Source of the DNA: a virus
IMG/VR virus record: IMGVR_UViG_3300048839_001283
Span: 1 to 37,175 of that record
DNA: 37,175 bases
Reading direction: 5' to 3' (one strand)
Part shown: positions 5,917 through 18,019 of the stretch, piece after piece
Layout: every line of letters starts with the position of its first letter
Position numbering within the stretch: position 1 is the first letter of the stretch
Position numbers and translations under genes: made by a program
The notes under the pieces: generated by a model
The model's input: the letters and a program-made list of their open reading frames with translations, nothing else
Database searches by the model: none
Told to the model about the DNA's origin: nothing

Positions 5917-6257
5917 GCCTGTGCCACCCCCGCGGCTTCAGGATGCCGCTGCAAGAACCGCTCGACCGCCCGTGCCTGCCTCACGAACCCCGGCCCGCTC
6001 AGCAGGACGCCCAGCGGCCGGCCAGCTTCGGTCGATGCTTCCAGCCAGTGCATCACGTGATTGCAGTGGTCGCAGTAGAGCGACCGCACCACCACGTGCG
6101 ACTCGTGATCCTCCGACCAGACAGGATCGCCCGTGACGACGCTGCCGCCGGCGAAGACCTTGCCGCACACGCCGCACTGGCAACGCTCGCTGCTCGGCTT
6201 CGCCTGGCAGTCCACCTGCGGCACGGTCGTCAGAGGCGCTGTGCGCAGAGCCGTCAT
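5913..6257 (-). CDS. Zinc-ribbon protein, unknown function
   Basis: A 114-residue protein with CQCGVCGKVF (about residues 26-35) and YCDHCNHVMHW (about 61-71). Two CxxC pairs about 35 residues apart are typical of a zinc ribbon. The C-terminal part is helical (FVRQARAVERFLQRHPEAA). It starts inside the stop of the preceding zinc-ribbon gene (ATGA). Nucleic-acid binding or protein contact is likely from the fold; the target is unknown. Confidence 0.7.
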   Translation of the reverse strand: MTALRTAPLTTVPQVDCQAKPSSERCQCGVCGKVFAGGSVVTGDPVWSEDHESHVVVRSLYCDHCNHVMHWLEASTEAGRPLGVLLSGPGFVRQARAVERFLQRHPEAAGVAQA

Positions 6258-7093
6258 GAACCACCCCCGATCTGCACCTGCTGGAGGACTCGACCGTCGG
6301 CGTCCGCCAGCGTCAGTTGCCGGCCGATCACGCCGACCATCAGCGACTTCGTCGCGGCCGGCAGTGCAATCCGTAAGAACGGCGACGACTCGCAGACATG
6401 GCCAGCTCCACCGGCCGCATCAGCCACGGCATCGGCGACCGTCGCCTCCTGTCTGGGTTTCGGCTGCGCCTGCCGGCGGGGCTTGTCGCCATCGACCTGC
6501 GGCCGGCGTCCGCGCAGCGGCTGATCAGCCTGCTGACCGACCCATGCGGCGAGATCCTCGGGCTTGCCAGCGCGGGTCCATCGCCAGTAGTGGCCATGGC
6601 ACAGGCCGCGAGCCTGCGCTTCGTTGTTGCAGCCATCCACCATGCAGCCGATTGGCTGTGTCCGCTGCTTCGGCATGTCCGTCCGCTCCTTCCCTCGTTC
6701 GCGATTCGCCGTCACGATCCTGTTCCAACGCGGTTTCGCCTGGATCGCCTTCTCCTGTTTCCAGTCCGGCGCCGTGGTCACGTCCACCGGCGGATGATCG
6801 ATCCATGCCTCCCCATCGCCGCCGCGAACCACCGTCCGCCGCCAGTCGCACTCCAGGCAGCTCGCCGTCACGCTCATGCCTGTCGTTTCCCGGCTGGTCG
6901 TGGATCCGCAGACCGGGCAGCGGAGGCGATGGCCCATGTCGGCGATCACGGTGGGAGCCGGATGAGGAGGATTCGCCACAGAGGACACAGAGAGCACAGA
7001 GGAAGAAACAGGAGTGCCCGGCGCGGTGGCCTTCTCCGGCATCCCAGTCTTCATCTCTGTGTTCTCGGTGCTCTCTGTGGCCAACGTCTGCAT
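6254..7093 (-). CDS. Two-part zinc-binding protein with repeat-encoded N-terminus and internal start
   Basis: The full frame encodes 279 residues. Residues about 58-85 hold RCPVCG...CLECDW, a zinc ribbon. Residues about 149-172 hold CMVDGCNNEAQARGLCHGHY, a Cys/His cluster seen in many phage HNH-like or DNA-binding proteins. Two CACAGAG-type repeats encode most of residues 4-14 (LATESTENTEM) and 30-41 (SSSVLSVSSVAN), so they interrupt or extend the original N-terminus. The ATG at 6676 is preceded by a strong GGAAGGAG site, 9 bases away, and would give a separate 140-residue product. I cannot tell whether the gene makes one protein, two, or only the shorter one. Confidence 0.65.
   Translation of the reverse strand: MQTLATESTENTEMKTGMPEKATAPGTPVSSSVLSVSSVANPPHPAPTVIADMGHRLRCPVCGSTTSRETTGMSVTASCLECDWRRTVVRGGDGEAWIDHPPVDVTTAPDWKQEKAIQAKPRWNRIVTANRERGKERTDMPKQRTQPIGCMVDGCNNEAQARGLCHGHYWRWTRAGKPEDLAAWVGQQADQPLRGRRPQVDGDKPRRQAQPKPRQEATVADAVADAAGGAGHVCESSPFLRIALPAATKSLMVGVIGRQLTLADADGRVLQQVQIGGGS
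6974..7083. repeat. CACAGAG-type repeat pair A/B, inverted
   Basis: Copy A (about 6975-7003) reads GCCACAGAGGACACAGAGAG then CACAGAGG. Copy B (about 7052-7083) is the same motif on the other strand. The arms are imperfect and about 50 bases apart, so RNA or single-stranded DNA could form a long hairpin. The pair lies inside the coding region of the zinc-binding protein and keeps its frame open. It resembles a small REP or MITE-like element. Confidence 0.8.
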
Positions 7094-7094
7094 C

Positions 7095-7442
7095 TCAGTT
7101 CCATCCCCCCTTGCACTCCATGCGGTCCAGCACGCCGTTCCAGCGTGTTAGTTGCCGCTCAGCCCGCAAGATCGCATGCGACGCCAGGTCGGCCAGTTCC
7201 ATTGCCTGTCGCTGGGCCAGCAGCACGATCTCCCGCGGCGTCCGCAACCCGCCCGACTGCGACCAGATCACGGCCGTCCGCTCCGCGTCCATCAAACCAG
7301 CCAGGTCCGGCTGATCCACCCCGCCGCGAATTTGCAGCCTCGGCATGTCACCCAGAGCCAGGTCCGGTTCCGGGGCCGGGGCCGGGGCCTTGTCGGCCCA
7401 CTGGCCGCTGACGAGGATCTCGAACAGGGGCTGCTTGATCAT
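7095..7442 (-). CDS. Phage protein of unknown function
   Basis: A 115-residue protein beginning MIKQPLFEILVSGQWADK. It has an Ala/Pro-rich stretch (residues about 18-28), then helices including REIVLLAQRQAMELADLAS and ERQLTRWNGVLDRMECKGG. The ATG at 7442 overlaps the stop of the gene before it (ATGA) and follows a GGGGTGA-like ribosome site. Longer upstream readings overlap that gene and look like shadow sequence. I recognise no family. Confidence 0.65.
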   Translation of the reverse strand: MIKQPLFEILVSGQWADKAPAPAPEPDLALGDMPRLQIRGGVDQPDLAGLMDAERTAVIWSQSGGLRTPREIVLLAQRQAMELADLASHAILRAERQLTRWNGVLDRMECKGGWN

Positions 7443-7798
7443 GCTGTCACCCCAGCTTCCAGATGTGCCATGTGCATCCGCCGCACGGACGCGAACGTCA
7501 CCGGGCACAGACGCGGCACAGCCATGCCGGTCCGCTTCATCGTCGCCACCAGTCCCTCGCCGTCCTCCGTGAGCCGGAAACAGCACTTCATGGGCGACGG
7601 GTGGTCGGTCAGCCGCTCCGCCAGGTGCATGCGCTGCAACTGCCGCAGGGCAGGCAGCACGCCCACCGGCGAGTCCACGCCTGCTGACCGCATGATCGAG
7701 TCCACGCTCCGCGGCCAGTGACTCATCGACCGCAGCAGGCACGACGCCAGCAGCGTCATGGCGCGGGGATCGGTCGGGGTTCTCACGGCTTCCTCCAT
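7439..7798 (-). CDS. Small winged-helix-like protein
   Basis: A 119-residue protein. The segment SVDSIMRSAGVDSPVGVLPA, then LRQLQRMHLAERL and CFRLTEDGEGLVATM, fits a winged helix: two helices, a recognition helix and a wing ending in a LT..G motif. The ATG at 7798 directly follows the previous stop. A GTG at 7786 has a better-placed GGAGG site and may be the real start. It would act as an early regulator or replication accessory protein, by position only. Confidence 0.6.
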   Translation of the reverse strand: MEEAVRTPTDPRAMTLLASCLLRSMSHWPRSVDSIMRSAGVDSPVGVLPALRQLQRMHLAERLTDHPSPMKCCFRLTEDGEGLVATMKRTGMAVPRLCPVTFASVRRMHMAHLEAGVTA

Positions 7799-8008
7799 CT
7801 ACTGGCACTCCCTCGGCAGCCGGACCAGCCGGTCGCCGGCGAACGACCACATCCGCCCGCTGCGGATCTCCGCCGCTCGCGCGGCACAACGATCGATCCG
7901 GTCGTCTTCGAGCGACGCCGGGCCGTGGTGATGGGACAGACCCCCCATGGTCACGCGGTCTTCCTCGCGGACCCGCACATCGCCGCCGGCGTTGATGGTG
8001 GATCGCAT
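7799..8008 (-). CDS. Small acidic/basic phage protein, unknown function
   Basis: A 69-residue protein (MRSTINAGGDVRVREEDRVT...RIDRCAARAAEIRSGR). The ATG at 8008 overlaps the stop of the HTH gene (TGATG) and has a clear GAGGAGGG ribosome site. A beta-rich start followed by a helix is suggested. There is no recognised motif and no family is assigned. Confidence 0.6.
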   Translation of the reverse strand: MRSTINAGGDVRVREEDRVTMGGLSHHHGPASLEDDRIDRCAARAAEIRSGRMWSFAGDRLVRLPRECQ

Positions 8009-8526
8009 CACGCCCTCCTCGCCTGCCGCCGCTGCGGCGTCGCGCGCGCCAACCTCTGGACGATCAGCGTCAGCGTTGCCAGGGCGGACATTGCCTCGCC
8101 CTGCACCAGCTCGCACAGCAGCAACTCGTGCTCCTCGACCTGCCCGTCGGCCACGGCGTCGCGGATCTTGGCGCTCGCCGCCGCCGCCCTGGTTACCGCC
8201 TCGATCGCCTGACCCAGCGCGTCCCAGGCGTCCACCCGGCCGTCGTGGTTGGTGTCCAGATCGTCCAGAGGCTCGACCACCTGCACCGGCAGCCCGCTGA
8301 TCAGGTCCGCCAGCAGCCGTTTCCGAGCCGCCGGCCGGGCGTGACGCAGCAGCGTCCGCAGTTGCGAGTAGCGCAGCTCCGTCTCGTTGAACAGCCGATA
8401 GGCTGAGCTCTTGCCCAGGTTGAGCAGGTCGCAGATCTCCGGGACCGTCAGATCGCCGTCGTCGTGCATGGCTTGCAGGGTGTCGTGGATCATCAGGATG
8501 TCTCTCTGATCAGATTCCCGCGTCAC
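8008..8526 (-). CDS. HTH protein with EF-hand-like loop, first gene of the early operon
   Basis: The 172-residue protein has a helix-turn-helix at about residues 27-50 (TVPEICDLLNLGKSSAYRLF). The loop DTNHDGRVD (about residues 91-99) matches the calcium-binding consensus of EF-hands and dockerins. A long helical C-terminus follows. As the first leftward gene it is a good candidate for early-operon control. It starts at GTG 8526 or, alternatively, at ATG 8493, which has a purine-rich stretch in front. It could instead be a terminase-like or replication DNA-binding protein; the HTH is the firm part. Confidence 0.65.
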   Translation of the reverse strand: MTRESDQRDILMIHDTLQAMHDDGDLTVPEICDLLNLGKSSAYRLFNETELRYSQLRTLLRHARPAARKRLLADLISGLPVQVVEPLDDLDTNHDGRVDAWDALGQAIEAVTRAAAASAKIRDAVADGQVEEHELLLCELVQGEAMSALATLTLIVQRLARATPQRRQARRA

Positions 8527-8551
8527 GGCATTGCGTCCCTGCGAGTTCCCG

Positions 8552-8601
8552 CCCCGGCGACCGTGCCGGGGTTACGATGCATCCGCGATGAGCGTTACGA
8601 G
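8552..8601. promoter_or_regulatory. Hairpin and TTACGA repeats before the early operon
   Basis: CCCCGGC (8552-8558) pairs perfectly with GCCGGGG (8565-8571). Just beyond it, TTACGA occurs twice in direct orientation, at about 8572 and 8595, 23 bases apart. The site lies 26-75 bases upstream of the first leftward gene, where operators or an attenuator would be expected. No convincing -35/-10 pair was found on the minus strand. Confidence 0.35.
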
Positions 8602-8727
8602 CCCAGCCGCGGGGACAGTTGAAAAAGGCTCGGCCACGGATCCCTCCTGGCTGCTTCGCCGACAGCCGGCCGAGCCACGATCAGCGCCAGTCCATGACGC
8701 CGAGTTGCGGAACAAAGAAGACGGTTT

Positions 8728-8767
8728 GCCACAGAGGGCACGGAGGACACAGAGAGGAAGACAGAGG
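8728..8767 (+). repeat. CACAGAG-type repeat, copy C
   Basis: The copy starts TGCCACAGAGGGCACGGAGG and continues with ACACAGAGAGG, showing the 9-10 base period of the family. It points right, towards copy D at 13049-13078, which points left. The two enclose the whole central accessory region. Confidence 0.75.
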
Positions 8768-8776
8768 TCAGCACGC

Positions 8777-9346
8777 TCACGCTCCTGCTACACTGCCCGC
8801 GGCTTCCCGTGGGAGAGGCGACGATGGACTTGCTGGCTGCCGCCGAGCGGGAGTTGCTCCCGAACGCCGTATGGAACCTGTGCGTTTCGTTCCAGAAAAA
8901 GGGCGGCTGGATTTGTCATCCGGCCCGTGAGCGTGCGATTCGCGAGCTGCGCGTGCTTGCTGCTGAGGCGCCATCGCTCGATGAATTCCGTCATGCGATC
9001 TGGTGGTGTCCCCGCTTTGGTCCGCTTGTCGAGCTACGCGCGGCGCTGCAGTTCGCCAGCAGGCGAGTTCGATCCGGTGAGCGACCACTGCCTTCAAGCG
9101 TTCAATCTCCGCTCGCTGCCGTGCAGTGGGCGATCGAGATGTACACAGCAGGGCTTCTCGCCGAATCCCCCGACAGGCTCGGTACACCTGACCAAGCGAA
9201 GGCGCCGGATCGACGCCGTCGCGACGCAGGATCTCGTAGCACCGACGGATCGTCATGATCGCGTCGTAGAAGAACAGCTCCGCAAAGCGGCGGCTGAACT
9301 CGCATCCCCCCCCTGCGTCGGTCTGGTTTGGCGTCTGCTCTTCCAT
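8777..9346 (-). CDS. Alternative leftward ORF antisense to 8824-9258
   Basis: A 189-residue frame whose first part looks real: RFAELFFYDAIMTIRRCYEI, then LRRDGVDPAPSLGQVYRACRG, with high G/C at third positions up to about 9180. The second half (HDGIHRAMAPQQQARAARES...) looks like shadow sequence. A GGGG-type ribosome site lies 7 bases before the ATG, and a 13-bp inverted repeat lies 25 bases upstream. It may be a real early gene with an unusual tail, or wholly spurious. Confidence 0.3.
   Translation of the reverse strand: MEEQTPNQTDAGGGCEFSRRFAELFFYDAIMTIRRCYEILRRDGVDPAPSLGQVYRACRGIRREALLCTSRSPTARQRAEIERLKAVVAHRIELACWRTAAPRVARQADQSGDTTRSHDGIHRAMAPQQQARAARESHAHGPDDKSSRPFSGTKRTGSIRRSGATPARRQPASPSSPLPREAAGSVAGA
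8824..9258 (+). CDS. Possible small regulatory-region protein, unknown function
   Basis: A 144-residue reading starting MDLLAAAERELLPNAVWNLC, with a good GGGAGAGG ribosome site 6 bases before the ATG. The first 80 codons have about 70 percent G/C at third positions and an amphipathic, ordinary protein composition (ARERAIRELRVLAAEAPSLD). The last 25 codons are Arg/Asp-rich and less convincing. An open frame on the other strand (8777-9346) overlaps it almost fully. I favour this strand slightly. No family is recognised. Confidence 0.5.
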   Translation: MDLLAAAERELLPNAVWNLCVSFQKKGGWICHPARERAIRELRVLAAEAPSLDEFRHAIWWCPRFGPLVELRAALQFASRRVRSGERPLPSSVQSPLAAVQWAIEMYTAGLLAESPDRLGTPDQAKAPDRRRRDAGSRSTDGSS

Positions 9347-9370
9347 CTTTCATCCCCACCCTTCAACCAC

Positions 9371-9585
9371 CCGGCCGGATCGGTTGTATTGGGTGGGGCC
9401 CGATCCGGCCGGTGCTGGTGGCTGCTCGTCGCGGCTGCCCCACCCGGGCGCCGCATCCGGTTGTCTTCGCCCCTCCCCACCGGGCCGGCCTGGCTGACCA
9501 GGTCCGGCCCAGCTTCCGGGGGGGACGGTGGCGGCATCAGCCGCCCAATGGCCCGCAGGGGCGTCAGCCCTGTGCTTCTGCGGGC
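9371..9585. repeat. Three successive strong hairpins
   Basis: The stems are CCGGCCGGATCGG (9371-9383) with 9400-9412, perfect over 13 bp; GGGCCGGCCTGG (9482-9493) with 9498-9510, having one bulged base; and GCCCGCAG (9551-9558) with 9578-9585, perfect over 8 bp. The intergenic stretch 9347-9837 holds no gene I would defend beyond the small leftward ORF at 9564-9716. The hairpins could be terminators, protein-binding sites or parts of a non-coding RNA. Confidence 0.55.
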
Positions 9586-9716
9586 GCTCGTGAGTCACCG
9601 TCACCGGAACGCCCAGTGGCGGTGTGATGAGTGAACTTGCCAGCCCTCTTTTTCCAGGCACCAACGGGCTGGCCGCGATCGTCCGAAACAGCCTCCCAAA
9701 GGATCGCCGCCGCCAT
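9564..9716 (-). CDS. Possible 50-residue leftward protein
   Basis: The reading is MAAAILWEAVSDDRGQPVGA, then WKKRAGKFTHHTATGRSGDG and a short tail. Composition and third-position G/C look protein-like, and no other frame here is convincing. The ribosome site is weak. An upstream GTG would add a few residues. It would be transcribed leftward towards the early operon. It overlaps the third hairpin of this region, which lowers confidence. Confidence 0.3.
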   Translation of the reverse strand: MAAAILWEAVSDDRGQPVGAWKKRAGKFTHHTATGRSGDGDSRAPAEAQG

Positions 9717-9758
9717 GCGACTCTTGCTGACGGCCACAGCTTGGCGGGCACCAAGAGC

Positions 9759-9808
9759 CTTGAAATGATATCAATGGTATCGACGCCGTCAAGGCGAAAC
9801 CTTGAAAG
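9759..9808 (+). promoter_or_regulatory. Operator-like repeats before the RHH gene
   Basis: CCTTGAAA occurs at 9759-9766 and 9801-9808, each followed within a few bases by CAATG. Between them lies the imperfect palindrome GATATCAATGGTATC (9768-9782). This AT-richer patch starts about 80 bases before the RHH-like gene. It fits a promoter-operator region for the rightward accessory genes and perhaps the lysogeny switch. No clear -10 box is assigned. Confidence 0.4.
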
Positions 9809-9837
9809 TCAATGCAAATGGTTGAAGAATGTTCGTA

Positions 9838-10134
9838 ATGGCAAACAAGCAGCTTGGTTACAGAATCGATAATGAACTCGTGAAGACCTTCGAAAGGTTT
9901 TGCGATGGCCGGATGTTGGATCCTTCACGGGTTATCCATGGGCTGCTGATCTGGTTTCTTGAGGCCGATGAAGAGAAGCGGGAGCAGATGGTTCAGGAGT
10001 ATCTCCGCCACAAGTCACTCGGAGGAGATGATCTGGTCGTCGGCGACGACCACGCCCAGCTCGGGATCGGGGTAGCCGGCAAGATCGCGGCCAAGAAGGA
10101 CAAAGTCACGCCGGACCGGCGTTCGAAGCACTGA
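9838..10134 (+). CDS. Ribbon-helix-helix-like putative regulator
   Basis: A 98-residue protein. GYRIDNELVKTFERFCDGRM, then LDPSRVIHGLLIWFLEA, follows the Arc/CopG pattern: a short strand, a helix, a turn, and a second helix starting with Ser. The C-terminal half is Lys/Asp-rich and probably disordered. The ATG at 9838 sits ten bases after GAAG; an in-frame ATG nine bases earlier is possible. Direct repeats in front suggest autoregulation. As the first rightward gene after the hairpin region it is a candidate lysogeny regulator, since no classic repressor was found. Confidence 0.6.
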   Translation: MANKQLGYRIDNELVKTFERFCDGRMLDPSRVIHGLLIWFLEADEEKREQMVQEYLRHKSLGGDDLVVGDDHAQLGIGVAGKIAAKKDKVTPDRRSKH

Positions 10135-10136
10135 GA

Positions 10137-10871
10137 ATGGCGAGCCAGCGACGGACTATTGAGCGACGATTGATCCTGATCACGGTCGGATTTGTTGCCG
10201 CCGGTTGGGCGGCATCAGGCGTCTGGATGTTGGCGCCACCGAAGCCATCTCCGACGATCCAGCCTCATCGCCAGGTTGTGCGTATGCGCCCGGATGGAGA
10301 TGAGTTGTTTCGAATCATCGCGTCCGGGGACAACTTTGACGCTCTCGCCCGCGCTATCGCGGCGGATTCAGCCTTGCCGAAGGATGACACCCGAGGCTAC
10401 ACATGGCTCTGGCAGGCTGCGAAGTATGGTCGATCTGATTGCGTTCATCTGCTTCTTGCCAAAGGAGCAGATCCCAACCACAGGTCTGATCCGTTGTCCG
10501 TTGCTGCTCGGAACGGCAACCGGGAATGTGCCGCCTTGATTTGGCGCTACGGTGGGCGGAGTGATGACGCTCTCCCCCTCGCTGCAGCCAATGGACACGC
10601 CTCGACGGTGGTGATGCTGCTTGCAGTGGGTGCTGACGTAAACCGGCCAAATTGCGCCGGAGAGACAGCTCTTCACGCTGCATGTCGGGCCAATCAGCAG
10701 AGTTCAGCAAGGATCCTGCTCGCTAACGGCGCGGCTATAAACGCCATGGACAAGACGAACCGAACGCCCCTCGATCATGCGATGTACTACGGCCATGCCC
10801 AGCTCAGCCTTGAGCTCATGAGAGCAGGCGGGATTCGGGGGACACCAGCGTCAGACGCACAGGCTCGATGA
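10137..10871 (+). CDS. Membrane-anchored ankyrin-repeat protein
   Basis: A 244-residue protein with a basic N-terminus and one membrane segment (about residues 11-33), then a short Pro-rich linker. About five ankyrin repeats follow (about 86-114, 117-143, 145-170, 174-203, 208-233). Typical motifs are HLLLAKGADPN, VMLLAVGADVN, GETALHAACRANQ and RTPLDHAMYYGH. The repeats should face outside the cytoplasm or form a periplasmic scaffold, depending on topology. The start is two bases after the RHH gene's stop, so the two are probably co-transcribed. Codon use is less GC-biased than in the structural genes, suggesting separate acquisition. Protein-protein binding, perhaps exclusion of other phages, is inferred. 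Confidence 0.85.
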   Translation: MASQRRTIERRLILITVGFVAAGWAASGVWMLAPPKPSPTIQPHRQVVRMRPDGDELFRIIASGDNFDALARAIAADSALPKDDTRGYTWLWQAAKYGRSDCVHLLLAKGADPNHRSDPLSVAARNGNRECAALIWRYGGRSDDALPLAAANGHASTVVMLLAVGADVNRPNCAGETALHAACRANQQSSARILLANGAAINAMDKTNRTPLDHAMYYGHAQLSLELMRAGGIRGTPASDAQAR

Positions 10872-11114
10872 TATGAGGGGAACGAGATTTGCCCACTCCT
10901 CTTCATCGCGGGGCATCGGGACGTGAAACAGCCACACATGCACCGCCTCGTGCTGGGCGATGAGCGTGTGCCTTTCCAAAGGAACAGCCGCATCGATGTA
11001 GATGCACTGGTCAACCAGGGATGCCAGACCCAAGACGCGATCGCCAGTCTCGGGATGCTTGAGACCCTCGCGAACGATGATCGGATACTGCAGAGCCCCG
11101 ACACAGACATGCAT
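10851..11114 (-). CDS. Small HEAVH zinc metallopeptidase-like protein
   Basis: An 87-residue protein. IYIDAAVPLERHTLIAQHEA followed by VHVWLF contains HEAVH (H55, E56, H59), the zinc and catalytic signature of gluzincin-type peptidases. The preceding strand and helix resemble ImmA/IrrE-type proteins, which cleave phage or ICE repressors. The start has a good GGGAG ribosome site 7 bases away. Its end overlaps the ankyrin gene by 21 bases in the convergent direction. It is short for ImmA (usually over 120 residues), so it may be a minimal or decayed form; a third zinc ligand could be an acidic residue at about 70-73. Confidence 0.7.
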   Translation of the reverse strand: MHVCVGALQYPIIVREGLKHPETGDRVLGLASLVDQCIYIDAAVPLERHTLIAQHEAVHVWLFHVPMPRDEEEWANLVPLISSSLCV

Positions 11115-11309
11115 GACCGACTCCCGAAAAGCGGGGCATCCCTGCCCCTGGCCTCACGTCCCTGCACCCGTACAGATACCGAATGAAAACCTAACGCGTC
11201 AAGCAGGCTACCCTTGCCGCCAGTGACAACAGGGTGGCAGCTACGCTTGCAGATCGTTGGGGGGTGGTTATCATGATTCCGATCTTCAGTTCCGAATTGT
11301 GGGTCGGGG

Positions 11310-11675
11310 ATGTCGCGAGCGAAGAAATCAGATGGGTGGCCCGATGCCTTCAAAGAGGTTGGATTGGCCATTGTCAATCACGGACAAGCACCGCTGTGCA
11401 TGCTCTTGGGAGGCCTTCTCATCGTGCTCTGGCGGATGCCCGAGGAGGATCTCAGCGCGGTCTGCACGGATATGCTGGCAATGCTGAAGGCAGGGTGGTA
11501 CTGGGGGTGGTTTCTGACCCCGGTTGCCTTGATCGGGTGGTACGTCGATCGTACAAATGGGCGGAGACTGCATGGCGCAGAGATGGCCCGCGTGGGGTCC
11601 GAGAAGTCCTGGGCACAGCAGGAAGCGGCCGGAAATGAGCGCCGCGACATCATAAAGTCGAGTGAAAAGAAATGA
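11310..11675 (+). CDS. Membrane protein with two predicted segments
   Basis: A 121-residue protein. Hydrophobic stretches at about residues 28-44 (LCMLLGGLLIVLW) and 63-78 (WYWGWFLTPVALIGWYV) are followed by a charged tail. The ATG follows a GGGTCGGGG-like purine stretch. The end overlaps the next gene (ATGA), so the two are coupled. It could be a holin-like or exclusion protein. Nothing identifies a family. Confidence 0.6.
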   Translation: MSRAKKSDGWPDAFKEVGLAIVNHGQAPLCMLLGGLLIVLWRMPEEDLSAVCTDMLAMLKAGWYWGWFLTPVALIGWYVDRTNGRRLHGAEMARVGSEKSWAQQEAAGNERRDIIKSSEKK

Positions 11676-12208
11676 TCGCAACCCTCCTCATCGTGTCTGC
11701 TCTGCTGGTCGTATGGCATCTGGTGTGGGAGAACATGATCGGCCCGACTTGGCGGACGAGCATCCGCTATCGCCTGTTCCGCCTGCGCGACCAGATTCGC
11801 CAGCACATCATTTCCGCCCCCAAGGGCGATGACGTCACCGGCTATCAGTACCTGCACGATGCGGTCAACGGCCTGCTCGCCAACATTGAGCGGCTTGACT
11901 TCACCATGCTGTGGGCCATGCGGTCAGCGTTGCGGAATGACCAGGAAATTCGTCGCCGTAGCATGGAACGACGACTTGTGATCGAACGCTGCGAAGACGG
12001 CGGTGAGATGCTGAGTACGGCGTCAGGACTGTTCCGCGAGGCCATCAGCGCGAACACTGGAGGCTGGTTCATCTACATCGTGCCACCGCTGGTTGGGTGG
12101 ATGTCGATGCGAGGACTGGTGAACCTGATCAATGAGATACTCGGCGTCCCCAGCCGGCTGATCGCCGAGAGCATGCACCGCCCGTCATGGCAGTTCCATC
12201 CCGCCTGA
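11672..12208 (+). CDS. Second membrane protein of the coupled pair
   Basis: A 178-residue protein with an N-terminal membrane segment (residues 1-19, MIATLLIVSALLVVWHLVW). A basic, helical cytoplasmic middle follows (IRYRLFRLRDQIRQHI; RRRSMERRLVIER), then a second hydrophobic region at about 137-160 (GGWFIYIVPPLVGWMSM). Its start codon overlaps the stop of the first membrane protein, suggesting a two-component membrane complex. No known family is recognised. It lies in the accessory region between early and late modules. Confidence 0.65.
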   Translation: MIATLLIVSALLVVWHLVWENMIGPTWRTSIRYRLFRLRDQIRQHIISAPKGDDVTGYQYLHDAVNGLLANIERLDFTMLWAMRSALRNDQEIRRRSMERRLVIERCEDGGEMLSTASGLFREAISANTGGWFIYIVPPLVGWMSMRGLVNLINEILGVPSRLIAESMHRPSWQFHPA

Positions 12209-12254
12209 CCCATCCGCGGTGACATCAGGCTGCGCGGGCATTCGACACGGTCAC

Positions 12255-12291
12255 TTGTCAAGGGCTACGGTCCCGCTTATGCTCCCGTAGC
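12255..12291 (+). promoter_or_regulatory. Promoter with operator-like dyad for the HicB-like gene
   Basis: TTGTCA (12255-12260), a 17-base spacer and TATGCT (12278-12283) form a good sigma70-type promoter. A perfect 7-bp dyad, GCTACGG (12264-12270) and CCGTAGC (12285-12291), brackets the -10 box. A repressor bound there would block the promoter, as expected for an autoregulated antitoxin operon. The 210-base gap 12209-12418 holds nothing else I recognise. Confidence 0.6.
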
Positions 12292-12418
12292 ATCGATCCG
12301 ATGAGACTGGTAGCTGATGCAGGGACGGCATCCAGTTTGCTCCAACAAAAGTGGGCCTGACACGTCACAGCACGGATGCGGCGAACGTGGAAGGTGTGGT
12401 ATGACAAGGGGAATCGCA

Positions 12419-12745
12419 ATGAACGCGACAAGCATCAGGGCGGTGGTGTTCAGCGAAGGTGATCACTTGGTTGCTCAGTGCCTGGAATACGACTTCGCCG
12501 TGCAGGGCAAGGGCATCCGCGAGCTGCGCAAGAACTTCGCATTCGCGTTCGCTTCGCACGTCGTTTTTGCCGTCGAGCACAAGTGCAAGCCGTTCGAAGG
12601 CGTGCAGCATGCCCCGGACAAGTTCTGGAAGATGTTCGAGGCCGCGGAGAAGGTCAAGCGTCAGCCGCTCAAGCCCGCGGTGAAGAGCGATCCAAAGAAG
12701 CCTTCGCCGCCGCTTCCCCAGTTTGCGGAACTGGCTCTTGCCTGA
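12419..12745 (+). CDS. HicB-like (antitoxin-fold) protein
   Basis: A 108-residue protein. IRAVVFSEGDHLVAQCLEYD followed by FAVQGKGIRELRKNF matches the HicB-like fold, a partial RNase-H-like sheet. It belongs to the common prophage-associated subgroup with VAQCLEYD and later PFEGVQHAPDKFWKMFEAA. The ATG at 12419 is chosen for its AAGGGG ribosome site 7 bases away; an ATG 18 bases upstream is weaker. The C-terminus is Lys/Pro-rich. In a toxin-antitoxin reading it would bind the following product and repress the upstream promoter. Confidence 0.7.
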   Translation: MNATSIRAVVFSEGDHLVAQCLEYDFAVQGKGIRELRKNFAFAFASHVVFAVEHKCKPFEGVQHAPDKFWKMFEAAEKVKRQPLKPAVKSDPKKPSPPLPQFAELALA

Positions 12746-12760
12746 GAAGATAGGCCTATC

Positions 12761-13039
12761 ATGGCCTACCCTCTCCAACTTCCGACGTGGGACGAGCTGA
12801 TCGCGGCGCTTGAGGCGGAAGGCGCCACCATCTGGACCAGCGAGGGCAAGATCACCCTGGACACCGGCGAGGAGCAGCACGCGGTGGTTCTCACCCGCCG
12901 GCGAAACGGCAAGTTGCTGTTCCACCCGCTTCCGACGGACCGAGACGGCAACGCCAAGGTCATGCCCGGCGTGGTCCGGGCGATCTGTGATCGCCTCGGC
13001 GTTCCCGTTCGCAAGATCCCCGGCTTTGACCTTGGGTGA
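12761..13039 (+). CDS. Possible HicA-like partner protein
   Basis: A 92-residue protein beginning MAYPLQLPTWDELIAALEAE. A beta segment follows (HAVVLTRRRNGKLLFHPLPT), then VMPGVVRAICDRLGVPVRK. A helix, strands and a final MP..VVRAI..RLG helix recall HicA's double-stranded RNA-binding fold and its usual C-terminal TLR.IL motif. The glycine-His signature of HicA (GSH) is not visible, so it may be a divergent or non-toxic relative. It starts 15 bases after the HicB-like stop. Confidence 0.5.
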   Translation: MAYPLQLPTWDELIAALEAEGATIWTSEGKITLDTGEEQHAVVLTRRRNGKLLFHPLPTDRDGNAKVMPGVVRAICDRLGVPVRKIPGFDLG

Positions 13040-13048
13040 CCTCCTCCC

Positions 13049-13078
13049 CCCTCCGTGCTCTCCGTGCCCTCTGTGGTG
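13049..13078 (-). repeat. CACAGAG-type repeat, copy D
   Basis: On the plus strand it reads CTCCGTGCTCTCCGTGCCCT followed by CTGTGG, the reverse of the family consensus. It begins ten bases after the stop of the possible HicA-like gene and ends 17 bases before the late promoter. It is inverted relative to copy C at 8728-8767. Confidence 0.75.
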
Positions 13079-13094
13079 AGTCAAGCATTTTCTC

Positions 13095-13124
13095 TTGACG
13101 CCGGCCCCGCCCCGCCGATATCCT
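13095..13124 (+). promoter_or_regulatory. Candidate late promoter
   Basis: TTGACG (13095-13100) is separated by 18 bases from TATCCT (13119-13124); a 17-base reading gives ATATCC. It is the best sigma70-like site ahead of the late genes and stands directly before a structured leader. Late transcription in Mu needs an activator; none was recognised here. Confidence 0.45.
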
Positions 13125-13163
13125 CCTGCAGACAACCCAGCGGCGAGTGATGACGTCGCTGAC

Positions 13164-13266
13164 CCCGGGCAACCGGGCGAGCTCGTGAGTCGTTAAACGC
13201 CATTCGATCGACCCTCACAGGCCGGTCGATCCCCGCGGAAGTGCTTCTGCGCGGATCGACCGGCCT
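13164..13266 (+). ncRNA. Structured 5' leader of the late transcript
   Basis: A CCCGG/CCGGG stem (13164-13168 with 13173-13177) is closed by a GCAA tetraloop. A long stem follows: 13219-13241 with 13244-13266, where 21 of 23 positions are complementary and the outer 14 bp (AGGCCGGTCGATCC) are perfect. The long stem ends 21 bases before the tape-measure start codon. The leader could be an attenuator, a ribosome-site control element or a terminator with a weak T-run; I cannot match it to a known RNA class. Confidence 0.5.
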
Positions 13267-13287
13267 TGTTGCATTGGGGCTGACCGC

Positions 13288-15207
13288 GTGGCGGACGAGA
13301 TTCGAACCAGAGTGACGGTGGAAGACGGGGCGACCGGCCCGTTGCAGCAGGTCGCCGCCGCCGAGGCCCGCCTGCAGCAGGTTACCGACGAAGCCGCCGC
13401 CGCCGCCGCCAAGGCCGGCGAGAAGTTCGAGCGCAAGGGCAACCAGACCCAGCGGCTGAAGGATCGTCTGACCGCCCTGATGGCGGAGGAACAAGCCGCC
13501 GCCCGCGCATCCGCCGCCGGCCAGCAGGCTGACGATCAGGCCACCGCCGCCGCCGAGCGGCGTCAGCGGCAGGTGGAGCGGATCGCCCAGGCCCTAGGTC
13601 GCCGCAAGGCGGCGGAGGACGCGGCGGCGGAGTCGATCAGGAAGGCCGCCGAACAATCCCGAGCATCGACAGAGGAGGCGGAAAAGCACGGCGATGTGAT
13701 CGCCGCCCTCGCCGGGAAGGTCGCCCCGCTCGCCGCTCTCGCGAGCGCGTGGCGAATGCTGACGGCTGAAATCAGGGCCAACAATGAGGCTGCCGAGCGC
13801 AACGCCAAGCTGGCCCGCGACGCCGCCGCCGAACGGCTGGACTTTGTCGCCCTGGCTGGCGTTGAGAATCCCCAGCAGATCCAGGCCCTCGATCAGATCG
13901 CGGCGTTTGCCGGTCGGCGACCGGGGGAGGTTTACCGGGCCGCCACGCTGGTGCGTTCGGCCCTGCCGGAGGCGAACGACGAGCAGTTGCAGCAGCTCCT
14001 GACCGAGGTGGCCCAGGCGGGCCAGCTCACGCAGACGCCGCTGCCCGAACTGGCGGCTCCGTTCATCACGCTGTTCCGCGAGACGCGCGACGCCCGGCAG
14101 TCGGGCAACCTGCTGCAGGAAGCGATCACGCAAGCCGGCGAACCGGACCCGGCGAGGCTCGGCCAGGCGATCGGCCAGTTCATCGGCATCGGTCGGACGA
14201 TCGGCGGTCTGAGCGCTGCCGAAGCGACCGGATTCGCGGCGGCGGCGACGGGGCTCGGCCTGCCGACCGAGGTCTCCATCACCGGCATGAAGAACGTGAT
14301 GTTCGCCTTGCGCGGCAAGGGCACGCCGGGGGGCGTTGAGACCTTGCAGCAGATCGGCATCACGGCAGGCGAGGGCGTCAACATCCAGCAGGCGCTGGGG
14401 ATCACCTCGCAGGCGGTCGCGGCCGGCCAGATCGGCGGGGCCCAGCTCGAAACGCTGGGCGGACGCGAGGCGGCGCCGGTTTTTGCGGCCCTGACCGACC
14501 CGCAGAAGCTGGCGGATTTCCAGGGCAAGGTGCAGCGGGTGGTCGCCGCCGGCCAGCAGCCCGATTCCCTGGCTCAGTCCAAGATCGAGGGGATCGTCAG
14601 CAGCAGCCCGCAGCAGGCGTTGCGGCTCGTGATCAGCCAGCAGGAAGCGGCGACGGAAGCCATTCGCGCCAGCGACCTGGGATCGCTGCAAAGAGAAGCC
14701 ACGCGGGCTGCCTTCGAGCGAGCACAGGCAAATTTGGAAGCCGAAGGCGCTGTGACGCCATTCAAGGCGGCGATCAACCGGGGGGTGTTTGATGTGCTCA
14801 CCGGGCTGGGGATCAGTCCTGCAAGCTCAATCGATCTTATCAGTCGAGGGACGCCGACCGTCGTGCAGACCGGCGATCCGCTGGAGGACCTTCTCAACAA
14901 GTTTGGCAACATGGTGGGTTTTCCGGGCATGCGGGGCCGCCAGCAATCAGCGAATCTCGCCACCAGGGTCCGCGAGGATCTGAACGCCGGGGCGATGACC
15001 AACTCTGCTGCCGCCGGCGGGATCAATGTCCGAGCAGAGATCGACCCCGAACAGATCCGTGCCGCCGTCCGCGACGGCATGCTTGATGCCCATGTGCGTC
15101 AGCCTCAGCAGGTGATCCAGCAGCAGCACAACTACGCGGTAAACCCGATGACGGACATCCGCGACGGGGTTCGCCGTTACGACCACCCGGTGTTCCAGGA
15201 GCGTTAG
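13288..15207 (+). CDS. Tail tape-measure protein
   Basis: A 639-residue protein. The N-terminus (MADEIRTRVTVEDGATGPLQ) is typical of tape-measure proteins. Ala/Gln/Glu-rich coiled coil covers about residues 20-140 and 170-195. A Gly/Ala-rich central region with hydrophobic stretches (FAAAATGLGLPTE, QALGITSQAVAAGQIGG) follows, and the end is soluble. The start is GTG at 13288 with a weak GGGG site. Tape-measure length sets tail length; at the usual ratio this predicts a tail near 100 nm. It normally follows the tail-tube genes, but here it heads the late region, far from them and bounded by hairpins, so it may form its own transcript. Confidence 0.85.
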   Translation: MADEIRTRVTVEDGATGPLQQVAAAEARLQQVTDEAAAAAAKAGEKFERKGNQTQRLKDRLTALMAEEQAAARASAAGQQADDQATAAAERRQRQVERIAQALGRRKAAEDAAAESIRKAAEQSRASTEEAEKHGDVIAALAGKVAPLAALASAWRMLTAEIRANNEAAERNAKLARDAAAERLDFVALAGVENPQQIQALDQIAAFAGRRPGEVYRAATLVRSALPEANDEQLQQLLTEVAQAGQLTQTPLPELAAPFITLFRETRDARQSGNLLQEAITQAGEPDPARLGQAIGQFIGIGRTIGGLSAAEATGFAAAATGLGLPTEVSITGMKNVMFALRGKGTPGGVETLQQIGITAGEGVNIQQALGITSQAVAAGQIGGAQLETLGGREAAPVFAALTDPQKLADFQGKVQRVVAAGQQPDSLAQSKIEGIVSSSPQQALRLVISQQEAATEAIRASDLGSLQREATRAAFERAQANLEAEGAVTPFKAAINRGVFDVLTGLGISPASSIDLISRGTPTVVQTGDPLEDLLNKFGNMVGFPGMRGRQQSANLATRVREDLNAGAMTNSAAAGGINVRAEIDPEQIRAAVRDGMLDAHVRQPQQVIQQQHNYAVNPMTDIRDGVRRYDHPVFQER

Positions 15208-15224
15208 CGCACAGTGTTCATCCC

Positions 15225-15278
15225 GTCACCCACAAGGGTGACACGAGACAAGCGGGTCTGCGAACGGTGTTCGCGGAC
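15225..15278 (+). terminator. Two hairpins after the tape-measure gene
   Basis: GTCACCC (15225-15231) and GGGTGAC (15236-15242) form a perfect stem around ACAA. GTCTGCGAAC (15256-15265) and GTTCGCGGAC (15269-15278) form a ten-pair stem with one G-T position. They lie 18-71 bases after the tape-measure stop and before the lysis genes. They may end or process the tape-measure transcript; no U-run is present. Confidence 0.5.
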
Positions 15279-15316
15279 GGGAGCAGGAAAGCGAACAGCG
15301 ATCAGGAGAGCAACGC

Positions 15317-16123
15317 ATGGACGCGACGACCAAGCCATGGTGGGCGAGCAGGACGATCTGGGCGGCGGTGACGGTGCTGGCGGTGGCGGTGCTGCGGGCC
15401 TGCGGCGTGGACGCGGCGTCTGAGGCCGCGGGGCTGGAGGGGGTCCTGACGGACGGGGCAATCGCCGTCGCGGCTCTCGTGGCCATCTTGGGCCGCGTGG
15501 CGGCCAGCCGGCGGATCGGGGCGAAGTCCGTCACCAGCGGCGACACCCAGCAGGAGATCATCGGCTCCTGCACCTGGTTGTGCGCCGGCATCTGGATCGC
15601 CATCTTTGCCACCGCGATGACCGGCTGCACGAGCAGCCCATTCACCGGCGACGACCGCTCCACGGCGACCGGAGACGAACGCGGTTCGGCTGGCTTCACG
15701 CAGCCGACGGTGATGTGCCACATTGACTTCAGCGGGGTTCCGAAGGCTTACCGGGTGGCCTTCGATGCCAAGACGGACCCGGCCGTCGAACCTGTGAAAC
15801 TTGAAGCCGTCGTCGCCACCGACGAGGCGGGCAAGCCGCTGTTGGACGAGGACGGTCAGCCGATCATGCAGCTCACGCCGACATCGGTTGAGAACGCTAC
15901 CAGCAGGCCGGGCCTGACGTTCGTCTGGGTTGGCGGGATCAGGGTCGTGACCAGCGGCTCGGCCTCCGCCGCCAGCGGCGACAGCGGCCAGACGGCGTCG
16001 GGATCCCAACATCGCCAGCAGCTCGCCGACCAGGTCAACGTGCAGAGTTCGGGGACCAACACCAAGACGGAGCCTGCCACCGCCGCCCTGCCAGCATCGA
16101 ATGCGGCCAGCGGCGGGGACTGA
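15317..16123 (+). CDS. Holin-like protein fused to a lipoprotein-like domain
   Basis: A 268-residue protein. KPWWASRTIWAAVTVLAVAV (residues about 6-25) and AIAVAALVAILGRVAASRR (about 48-66) form a two-segment start typical of phage holins with a W.S+T+W motif. A third hydrophobic segment, CTWLCAGIWIAIFATAMTGC (85-104), ends in a lipobox-like MTGC, followed by Ser/Thr-rich and beta-rich sequence. The second half thus resembles an outer-membrane spanin or other lipoprotein. The start has AGGAGAG 7 bases away. A single frame joining holin and lipoprotein is unusual; alternatively the whole is an uncharacterised membrane lysis protein. Confidence 0.65.
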   Translation: MDATTKPWWASRTIWAAVTVLAVAVLRACGVDAASEAAGLEGVLTDGAIAVAALVAILGRVAASRRIGAKSVTSGDTQQEIIGSCTWLCAGIWIAIFATAMTGCTSSPFTGDDRSTATGDERGSAGFTQPTVMCHIDFSGVPKAYRVAFDAKTDPAVEPVKLEAVVATDEAGKPLLDEDGQPIMQLTPTSVENATSRPGLTFVWVGGIRVVTSGSASAASGDSGQTASGSQHRQQLADQVNVQSSGTNTKTEPATAALPASNAASGGD

Positions 16124-16131
16124 TTAAACAC

Positions 16132-16236
16132 ATGGACGCCAGCGCGTCGCCGGTCGGGGGCACCCGGCCGGCGGCATTGATCGAATCGGACAAGCCGCGC
16201 AGCAGGGACGCAGAATGGCACCGACCTTGGCACTGA
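16132..16236 (+). CDS. Very small ORF between lysis genes
   Basis: A 34-residue reading (MDASASPVGGTRPAALIESD...) that overlaps the start of the next gene. It has no clear ribosome site. It fills the short gap after the holin-like gene and may be a translated leader or nothing. Confidence 0.2.
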   Translation: MDASASPVGGTRPAALIESDKPRSRDAEWHRPWH

Positions 16237-16676
16237 GCGACTCCTGGATCATCGGCATCGCCGTCTCCCAGATGATTGTCAACGTGGTCATCGCGTTGGC
16301 CTTGTTCTGGCTGAAGGGGCAGACCGACCGCGTCTCGACGCTCGAGCGCGAGATCAAGCAGCGGGCGGACGAGGCGATCGACAGCCGGTTCGCGACGCTC
16401 ACCGCCAAGATGGAAGGCATGTTCGCCGGCCTCAGCGGCGAAGTCCATCGCATCAACGTCCGGCTTGGCAGCGGCGACAGCGATCTGCGCGATCTCGCCC
16501 GCCAGGATCAGCGCATCGAGCTGCAGGTCGCGGCCAAGGTCGGCGAACTGCGCGAGTGGATGCTCACTCACTTCGCGACGCAGGAGTCGGTGAGCGGTCT
16601 GTCCCAACAGGTCCAGCAGGTGGCCAACACGCTGGCGGCGTGCCGGGCTGGGCATCGCGAGGAGTACCCCACATGA
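16215..16676 (+). CDS. DUF2730-like (Mu gp25-type) membrane coiled-coil protein
   Basis: A 153-residue protein with one membrane segment (about residues 10-33, WIIGIAVSQMIVNVVIALAL) followed by a long helical coiled coil (residues about 40-140). This layout matches DUF2730 proteins that stand just before the gp26- and gp27-like genes in Mu-type phages. Their role is not settled; a lysis or Rz-like function has been suggested by topology. The end overlaps the next gene (ATGA). Confidence 0.7.
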   Translation: MAPTLALSDSWIIGIAVSQMIVNVVIALALFWLKGQTDRVSTLEREIKQRADEAIDSRFATLTAKMEGMFAGLSGEVHRINVRLGSGDSDLRDLARQDQRIELQVAAKVGELREWMLTHFATQESVSGLSQQVQQVANTLAACRAGHREEYPT

Positions 16677-17056
16677 GCCGCTACGGCGCCCCTGCGGACA
16701 TGACTGGCCGGGCCCGCGTGCAGCGTGACATGCGTCTGCGCCGCCGGCTGCTCGAAGTCCTGCACGCCCAGCGCGGCAATGACGCCGACGGCTGGGTGTC
16801 GGGCCGGTTTTTGCTCGACGTGCTGCAGGGCTGGGGCGGGATCGATCAGCGTTTCGAGTCCGAGCAGCACATGGTGAGCCTGTTGCAGGACCTCAAGCTG
16901 GCTGACCTCGCCCACGCCCGCGACGACCGCGAGCGGGTGACGGAGGAGTTGACGATCGACGTGCGGAGCTGGCGGATCGCCCCGCTGGGCTGTGCCCTGA
17001 TGGAGGAGGCGATCCCGCCGCACGAACTGGTGGCTGACGAGCGGATCCGCAAATGA
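16673..17056 (+). CDS. Mu gp26-like winged-helix phage protein
   Basis: A 127-residue protein. LRRRLLEVLHAQRGNDADGW, then VSGRFLLDVLQGWGG and MVSLLQDLKLADL, form the HTH. ELTIDVRSWRIAPLGCALM forms a wing and tail. This is the pattern of the small wHTH proteins that lie between DUF2730 and DUF3486 genes in Mu-like phages. It may help DNA recognition in packaging. Start and stop overlap its neighbours, supporting the chosen ATG. Confidence 0.7.
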   Translation: MSRYGAPADMTGRARVQRDMRLRRRLLEVLHAQRGNDADGWVSGRFLLDVLQGWGGIDQRFESEQHMVSLLQDLKLADLAHARDDRERVTEELTIDVRSWRIAPLGCALMEEAIPPHELVADERIRK

Positions 17057-17838
17057 CCGAGCAGACCGAAACCAACCTGGCCACCGCGTTGCCGCCGGTC
17101 GAGCAGATCGCGCATTGGGCTATCGAGCGCCTGGCGATCGAGGGCTACCGGTCGTCGCTGATGAGTCTGCCGCGGGGCACGCTGCTGCAACTGGCGGCAC
17201 GGCTGGTCACGCCGGGCGAGAGCCGGGCCGATGCGCACCGCTGGCTGTGCGGCATGGAGTCCGAGGAGATCGACCAGGCGACGTTCTACCGCTGGTGCCA
17301 GCGTTTCAGCGAGGTCTGCAAGACCATCAAGGCGGAGCTGACGGCGAAGCTGCTGCTGGCGGAACTCGGCCGGGGCCGCGTCGATGTCGCCCAGCTCCGC
17401 GAACTGAACCAGCATCGCATCCAGCACCTGGTCGCTCAGGAACTGGTCGCGGCCCAGTCGGTGCATGACATCGACGCGGCCCGCCTGGTCAAGGTCGTCA
17501 GCAGTCTGCGAATGCTGGACCAGTCGGAGCGGGATCAGGAGTCTCTGGTCATCGCCCGCGACGATGCCGCGCGCCGGGCATCGAAGGCGGAGGCGGAGGT
17601 CGCCCTGCTGCGTCAGCGCCTGGAGCGGATTCCCGACCAGGTGAAGGAACTGACCCGCCGGCTGAGGCAGATCGAGGACGCCACGTCGCAGGGCAAGCGT
17701 GTCGATCCGGCGATCTTCGCCGAGATCCGCGACGCCCTGATCGCCATGGCGCCCCCGGCTCCGGGGGCGGCCCCGGACCCCGGAACGAAGAGTGTTGCCA
17801 CAGAGGACGCAGAGAGCACAGAGGGGAGGGCGGCGTGA
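17053..17838 (+). CDS. DUF3486 (Mu gp27-like) putative terminase small subunit
   Basis: A 261-residue protein. LMSLPRGTLLQLAARLVTPG, ADAHRWLCGME and IDQATFYRWCQRFSEVCKTI form the N-terminal HTH typical of Mu gp27-type proteins. A long helical region (about 95-215) follows. Its position before the large terminase gene agrees. The final residues (SVATEDAESTEGRAA) are encoded by CACAGAG-type repeat copy E, so the C-terminus has been replaced or extended by a repeat insertion. It should bind phage DNA and recruit the motor. Confidence 0.8.
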   Translation: MTEQTETNLATALPPVEQIAHWAIERLAIEGYRSSLMSLPRGTLLQLAARLVTPGESRADAHRWLCGMESEEIDQATFYRWCQRFSEVCKTIKAELTAKLLLAELGRGRVDVAQLRELNQHRIQHLVAQELVAAQSVHDIDAARLVKVVSSLRMLDQSERDQESLVIARDDAARRASKAEAEVALLRQRLERIPDQVKELTRRLRQIEDATSQGKRVDPAIFAEIRDALIAMAPPAPGAAPDPGTKSVATEDAESTEGRAA

Positions 17839-18019
17839 TGGCGAGATGGGAAGCATGGGCAGGCTGGACTGCGGGCTGCGACCTGTGGGTACCAGTCAGC
17901 GCAGGTGACGCGGCCAGACTGGTTACTGCCGGTTGCCCCGTGCGACTTCGGCATGACTCGATCACCGAACTGCTCGGAGGCTCTGACTGATCTCTGTGTC
18001 CTCTGTGCCCTCTGTGGCG
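17796..18019. repeat. CACAGAG-type repeat pair E/F, inverted
   Basis: Copy E (17796-17826) reads TTGCCACAGAGGACGCAGAG then AGCACAGAGGGG. Copy F (17990-18019) is the reverse, ending TGCCCTCTGTGGCGA. They bracket 163 bases that contain the 50-residue ORF. E lies inside the end of the gp27-like gene; F ends 19 bases before the terminase start. The pair looks like one inserted element about 224 bases long. Confidence 0.8.
17838..17990 (+). CDS. Possible 50-residue protein between the terminase subunits
   Basis: The reading is MARWEAWAGWTAGCDLWVPV, then SAGDAARLVTAGCPVRLRHD and SITELLGGSD. It begins with a TGATG overlap with the gp27-like gene and ends exactly where repeat copy F begins. Third-position G/C is good and the composition is protein-like, with Trp-rich N-terminal residues. 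It is fully enclosed by the E/F repeat pair, so it may be cargo of that element or a displaced gene end. Confidence 0.45.
   Translation: MARWEAWAGWTAGCDLWVPVSAGDAARLVTAGCPVRLRHDSITELLGGSD

Follow-up and report, generated by a model that had tools for sequence, protein, structure and literature searches.

CACAGAG repeat arms of a viral genome, their dispersed family and its association with GxxExxY genes: a candidate REP/RAYT-like system

Short inverted repeats scattered through a phage genome raise the question of whether they delimit segments of that genome or are themselves the dispersing units. The question is posed here by a viral genome from IMG/VR (record IMGVR_UViG_3300048839_001283, positions 1 to 37,175), the whole 37,175-nt stretch of which we call the window. 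In it, a first-pass annotation had recognized three inverted pairs of CACAGAG repeats and taken them for possible ends of small mobile units or sites of cassette exchange. We find them to be members of a dispersed family that spans many phyla and is associated with genes for GxxExxY proteins. Taking the evidence together, we think it likely that the arms of the phage are dispersed, probably mobile, non-autonomous elements that it acquired, and that GxxExxY is the coding member of the family, in an arrangement like that of the repetitive extragenic palindromes (REP) and their REP-associated tyrosine transposases (RAYTs).

Repeat arms of the phage window and their family

The window holds exactly six copies, and no seventh, of a 27-nt arm with the pattern GCCACAGAG-RR-CACAGAG-RR-CACAGAG, built as three 9-bp units in tandem. 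Arms A to F depart from GCCACAGAGRRCACAGAGRRCACAGAG by 0, 1, 1, 3, 1 and 0 mismatches, respectively, against 6 for the best match in 40 shuffled windows. The CACAGAG heptamer itself occurs 14 times where 5.5 are expected, a count reached in 0/100 shuffles; its occurrence at 35571 is a lone heptamer. The three successive pairs all point inward, bearing out the arrangement originally recognized, and the enclosed lengths then given as about 50 bp, 4.3 kb and 163 bp measure 53 (A/B), 4296 (C/D) and 168 nt (E/F).

Arm A (6975-7001, plus strand; GCCACAGAG GACACAGAG AGCACAGAG) and its inward partner B (7055-7081, minus strand) form a 107-nt hairpin unit (6975-7081) that occupies the gap between the minus-strand genes at 6254-6937 and 7095-7889. 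Arms C and D likewise lie between open reading frames (ORFs): C (8728-8754, plus strand), in the gap beside the minus-strand gene at 8008-8526, is a solo arm with no partner in up to 4.2 kb downstream, and D (13051-13077, minus strand), the most diverged with its 3 mismatches, begins 11 nt past the stop of the gene at 12761-13039. Arm E (17797-17823, plus strand) is situated inside the 3' end of the ORF at 17053-17838, which precedes the terminase large subunit gene (terL); with its inward partner F (17992-18018, minus strand) it makes a 222-nt unit (17797-18018) that straddles the ORF end and the gap ahead of terL. As the arms lack stop codons in all frames, ORFs read through them, and arm E contributes ...KSVATEDAESTEGRAA to the ORF upstream of terL. 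The small ORF that had been noticed between E and F is literally there (17835-17990, 51 aa) but matches no family, and neither the A/B nor the E/F spacer holds a recognizable gene.

The further proposal that similar repeats are dispersed in bacterial genomes is confirmed by a survey of one genome per species, scanned for the pattern GCCACAGAG-NN-CACAGAG-NN-CACAGAG. Among the matches listed, the carriers comprise Planctomycetota, Pseudomonadota, Acidobacteriota, Chloroflexota, Desulfobacterota, Nitrospirota and archaeal metagenome-assembled genomes, with up to 219 exact copies in a repeat-bearing genome; a reversed-pattern control gave 0 in all genomes. The 27-nt arm of the phage is also the one that borders GxxExxY genes of the CACAGAG-armed protein clade (below) in loci L338, L345, L347, L354, L387 and L389. 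Occurrence is patchy, the repeat being carried by 24 of 392 Planctomycetota genomes and, in the order that includes genome G003, by 21 of 250. In one acidobacterial genome (G002) many pairs have identical arms. Literature searches by the repeat sequence string found nothing relevant.

The family follows a clear orientation rule. When neighboring arms in cellular genomes are less than 400 nt apart, 96 of 104 pairs face inward, the usual unit being intergenic with a spacing of 4-370 nt; at 1-8 kb none of 20 does so and 19 face outward, the expected sign of separate units. In viral contigs the arms are mostly solo, and at 0.4-8 kb their orientation is random (4/21 inward). Since the inward rule holds below 400 nt but not at 1 kb or more, A/B and E/F, being inward pairs with spacers under about 400 nt, are normal units of the family, whereas C/D with its 4296 nt is not; the best reading is that C and D are two solo arms and that their facing orientation is fortuitous. 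In several of the repeat-bearing viral contigs there are terminase, portal or MuA genes of B3/Mu-like type, related to those of the window, so phages of this sort acquire the repeat repeatedly.

GxxExxY genes flanked by the arms

Wide inward pairs inspected in Planctomycetota and Acidobacteriota enclose single genes, and repeatedly the enclosed gene encodes a GxxExxY protein (1.7e-41 against TIGR04256; PF13366, PDDEXK_3). In a first sample of such genes, seven loci have CACAGAG arms on both sides, the right arm beginning 7 nt before the ORF end in six. GxxExxY is present in 19 of 20 repeat-bearing genomes, and significant inverted arms flank 19 of the 26 testable GxxExxY genes in this genome set; among control ORFs from the same set the figure is 8 of 40, and the aligned sequences of these 8 identify three as the same GxxExxY elements and four as resembling the palindromes of Y1 transposase genes. 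The association recurs in a sample drawn regardless of the repeat (250 genomes, one order), where 18 of 22 GxxExxY genes have significant inverted arms and CACAGAG is carried by 11 of 33 genomes with GxxExxY versus 10 of 217 without it (p = 5.8e-6). In these comparisons simple rules set the ORF starts, and draft genomes blur absence. Over 69 distinct GxxExxY genes, 51 pass the arm score, their inverted arms consisting of 8-10 bp units in tandem; the motifs fall into many families that share one form, namely two to four repeats of C-R-C-R-R-A-K plus 2-3 nt. Two viral contigs were found to encode GxxExxY (L360, 2977-3393; L361, 2129-2518), both genes being flanked by arms of iterated units in inverted orientation (types CACGGAT and CACAAAG), and it occurs in 7 of 72,556 plasmid records; given these few copies, viral contigs and plasmids do not appear to be the main vehicle of the gene.

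Arm motif and protein phylogeny diverge together. In a tree of 64 GxxExxY proteins, 15 of the 19 with 9-bp CACAGAG arms fall in one clade (support 100/99), whose members come from five phyla (Planctomycetota, Acidobacteriota, Pseudomonadota, Nitrospirota and that of Geobacter); the CACAGAG label requires 4 changes on the tree versus 16.7 in shuffles. The distinction between arms ending in '-AG' and '-AT', scored over 53 proteins, requires a single change and does not depend on loci having been found through the repeat. Where a genome has a clade member (identity of 65% or more), it also carries CACAGAG copies (5 of 5 genomes), and a clade member occurs in none of the 14 GxxExxY genomes devoid of such copies. 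Across phyla, the GxxExxY proteins are up to 85% identical and their flanks unrelated.

The protein itself resembles a nuclease. Ten aligned members share H17, G21-x-G23-xx-E26-xx-Y29, D65, E75-x-K77 and Q89-xxx-Y93, and the conserved pattern of D, ExK and QxxxY points to a PD-(D/E)XK nuclease with a QxxxY motif. No solved structure in the PDB matches it by sequence; an AlphaFold model from six natural sequences (mean predicted local distance difference test score 93) has Cas4 (SSO0001), LHK-Exo, MGME1 and lambda exonuclease as its nearest solved folds. On this model, GxxExxY is predicted to be a compact PD-(D/E)XK nuclease, in type like Cas4 and lambda exonuclease. The literature searched, from which subscription sources were excluded, offers only the family name and two incidental mentions of it, with no role and no link to the repeat.

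Other cargo is also found between inward CACAGAG arms, viz., an HNH-like gene, a possible toxin-antitoxin pair and an IS1595 transposase. In the planctomycete G184, HNH-like and GxxExxY genes separated by CACAGAG arms are inserted between gatB-like and gatA-like genes (L318, 1704-2806). In L316 (3683-4885), inward arms enclose genes that by eye could be a PIN-domain toxin and its antitoxin, with no NCBIfam toxin match, and in L323 (3162-3973) the arms around the IS1595-family transposase gene have identical variable nucleotides.

Orthologous gaps differ in whether they hold an element. In a Geobacter genome (contig L240), most gaps of the hdr operon contain one unit of ~170-190 nt. In relatives whose hdrA is 84-95% identical, the same gaps are either empty, with stop and start 0-2 nt apart (e.g., L288, L290, L293), or taken up by sibling elements that are built alike but have other motifs (CACGGAG, CACGAAG, GCGGAT and others). 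Units have therefore been gained and lost, and what relatives share is the gap rather than the motif. Together with the orientation rule, this agrees with the first-pass suggestion of small mobile units as far as A/B and E/F are concerned, but not for C/D. The gaps beside hdrA in L285-L309 also hold palindromic families of GTAGGGGCG, GGTTCAA and GTTCTACGTT types, which depart from the C-R-C-R-R-A-K form. The regular spacing in L240 had brought to mind an integron-like cassette array; this was rejected as the locus is a housekeeping hdr operon, no dedicated integrase or attC search having been made. The coding form shows a comparable pattern: the gap between the reverse transcriptase (RT) and cas1 genes of a planctomycete CRISPR operon contains an armed GxxExxY gene in four genomes (L391, L392, L394 and L395; for the L392 locus see also L320) and lacks it in five (L397-L400 and L402). 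A published case next to CRISPR-associated RT is noted in which a gene was called cas4 by one tool and GxxExxY by another (PMC8934634). Given that disagreement and the GxxExxY genes beside CRISPR-associated RT genes in L391-L395, some 'cas4' calls next to RT-cas1 may in fact be the GxxExxY mobile gene.

Setting of the arms in the phage

By its gene content, the window is a B3/Mu-like transposable phage, with MuA- and MuB-like genes at its left on the minus strand (the MuA-like transposase at 3527-5722, by profile match) and terminase and portal genes at its right. The terminase large subunit (18039-19499, plus strand; PF03237, PF17289) counts Pseudomonas phage B3 among its matches. As the arms are internal, the MuA-like transposase of the phage is not their source. 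The closest terminase relatives found, 40-47% identical, are prophages of one Planctomycetota class, in which 54 of 397 genomes carry them; the host probably belongs there. We found no viral contig with a terminase closer than about 43%, and no sister prophage close enough to compare each segment with its empty site, as the first-pass annotation had suggested (best terminase identity 43-47%). The ORF upstream of terL meets or overlaps it in several related prophages, and arms near terL are absent from all 13 such loci; this fits E/F being an insertion. The window contains no GxxExxY ORF, so the phage copies are only non-autonomous.

The C-to-D interval (8755-13050) contains accessory genes, among them one for an ankyrin-repeat protein (10137-10871) with a possible N-terminal membrane segment. 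The ORFs at 12317-12745 and 12761-13039 look HicB/HicA-like by eye, with no hidden Markov model support. Between arm D and the ORF at 13288-15207, an inverted repeat, GGCCGGTCGATC ... GATCGACCGGCC, followed by TTGTTG (13188-13275) is a possible terminator. Farther to the right, a 213-bp unit occurs twice in a row (33839-34264; 86% identical) within the long ORF at 32836-35019.

Alternative explanations and a proposed repeat-propagating system

The second suggestion of the first-pass annotation was that the pairs are sites of cassette exchange. In its full form, C/D and the remaining pairs would be genuine cassette borders, and the cassettes would be exchanged between phages by recombination at the repeats. 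The proposal draws on the accessory, partly low-GC content of C/D, on the single genes (HNH-like, possible toxin-antitoxin, IS1595 transposase and GxxExxY) within inward pairs elsewhere and on two near-identical loci that offer a model for how wide pairs form: the same unit has a spacer of 101 nt in L325 and of 2511 nt in L320/L392, owing to ~2.4 kb of extra DNA. We nevertheless regard it, and with it a C/D pair split in this way, as quite unlikely: the lack of inward pairs beyond 1 kb in cellular loci and the random orientation in viral contigs speak against borders, arm C is closer to F (94% identity) than to D (86%), the GC dip to 0.58-0.60 covers only ~9500-12500 and does not begin at the arms, and the A/B and E/F spacers carry no recognizable cargo. 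An even less probable proposition, to which we assign very little weight, is that the pairs act as RNA hairpins, whether attenuators, mRNA stabilizers or terminators between genes. Their location in gaps, often within operons, and the capacity of an inverted pair to fold are in keeping with it, yet over 95 pairs the variable dinucleotides between iterons agree at 1.53 of 4 positions versus 1.57 in shuffles. Since the variable nucleotides of paired arms thus fail to covary, the many identical-arm pairs of G002 notwithstanding, stem pairing is not maintained; moreover, solo arms are common in phages, the repeat has no match in Rfam and the link to GxxExxY would be left unexplained.

The lack of covariation points instead to recognition of each arm by a protein. 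A further alternative takes the arms, whose iterated 9-bp boxes do resemble protein-binding iterons, for sites of a regulator, with GxxExxY merely regulated, or else a selfish nuclease gene that hitch-hikes by homing into existing repeats. A precedent is found in Geobacter metallireducens, whose class 2 paired sites consist of three tandem units of TCTCCGTS[Y], which is CACGGAG when read from the opposite strand (Aklujkar et al. 2009, PMC2700814, Additional file 8). They are described as multicopy, intergenic, opposite-strand pairs at variable distance, peculiar to that genome, and are interpreted as binding sites for regulators, with unidentified global regulators or IHF/HU as the proposed ligands. 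Compared with the sites as described there, our family has the same three-tandem, opposite-strand paired, intergenic architecture; it differs in its motif, CACAGAG being one base away from CACGGAG, in spanning many phyla and in its tie to GxxExxY. Although further gene types between the arms would also suit a regulator, the co-divergence of arm motif and GxxExxY phylogeny over many families is not expected from a single one, and the repeat is patchy between close relatives and present across phyla. We therefore hold this explanation to be unlikely.

Propagation of the repeat by its own GxxExxY protein would have a close parallel in the REP/REPIN-RAYT systems (PMC3116915, PMC3733652). Both comprise many short intergenic copies with an inward pair as the unit and one dedicated protein encoded between copies of that repeat, and both are mostly vertical with some horizontal spread. 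Unlike REP or REPIN sequences, the CACAGAG arm is a direct repeat of 9-bp boxes rather than a small palindrome with a GTAG head, and GxxExxY, unlike RAYT, is predicted to be a PD-(D/E)XK nuclease. A RAYT was itself considered as the partner of the repeat and rejected, as 0/30 Y1_Tnp genes of repeat-bearing genomes have an arm within 1.5 kb. Miniature inverted-repeat transposable elements of DDE transposons such as IS1595 share the short non-autonomous units and terminal inverted repeats, and one IS1595 transposase does lie between CACAGAG arms (L323); against this, no target duplication was seen, and that single case compares with many for GxxExxY.

The basic unit of the family has two inward arms, with three CACAGAG iterons of 9 bp apiece, that enclose a short variable spacer between genes; A/B and E/F are complete examples, and in the mechanism that we propose the GxxExxY gene between the same arms would be the autonomous form. 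The protein would bind the iterons of its own arms and cut DNA there, whereupon host repair would copy the arm-spacer-arm unit into new intergenic sites. Gene-less units would be moved in trans, as REPINs are by RAYTs. The phage copies probably originate from host DNA.

Several observations weigh against this account and temper our confidence in it. The fold matches of GxxExxY are weak by E-value (1e-3). No target-site duplication is evident by eye between filled and empty hdr gaps, where the relatives are too diverged for exactness, and no live transposition was seen, so movement of the elements is here deduced from their distribution. About a quarter of the 69 GxxExxY genes are without clear arms, some through ORF-start errors or direct-orientation arms. 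GxxExxY was not detected in 10 of the 21 CACAGAG-bearing genomes of the G003 order, for which draft genomes, loss or distant members may account, and the window itself lacks the gene. The CACAGAG label on the tree is biased, as the repeat was what first led to 9 of the 15 proteins in the clade. Finally, betaproteobacteria keep GxxExxY at a single conserved locus with flanks 75-89% identical, from which it follows that the gene is often vertically inherited. With the cross-phylum similarity of the proteins on unrelated flanks, this makes a mixture of vertical descent and occasional transfer, as is also shown by RAYT/REP systems (cf. PMC8049555).

A wider claim, which we regard as evenly balanced between true and false, is that GxxExxY defines a new class of mobile or repeat-propagating system. 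This would combine a small PD-(D/E)XK nuclease with iterated inverted arms specific to it, of the superconsensus C-R-C-R-R-A-K plus 2-3 nt, and its non-autonomous copies would account for many of the CACAGAG-, CACGAAG- and CGCAGAT-type repeats of environmental bacteria and of some of their phages. Palindromes iterated at 9-10 bp crowd the intergenic DNA of many environmental genomes with no accepted owner, and GxxExxY is named in many bacterial annotations with no known role; the link between them is a first testable clue to both gene and repeat. If correct, it would represent a system of the REP/RAYT kind in which an unrelated PD-(D/E)XK nuclease takes the place of the tyrosine transposase, and would explain why the same repeat occurs in unrelated phyla and in their phages.

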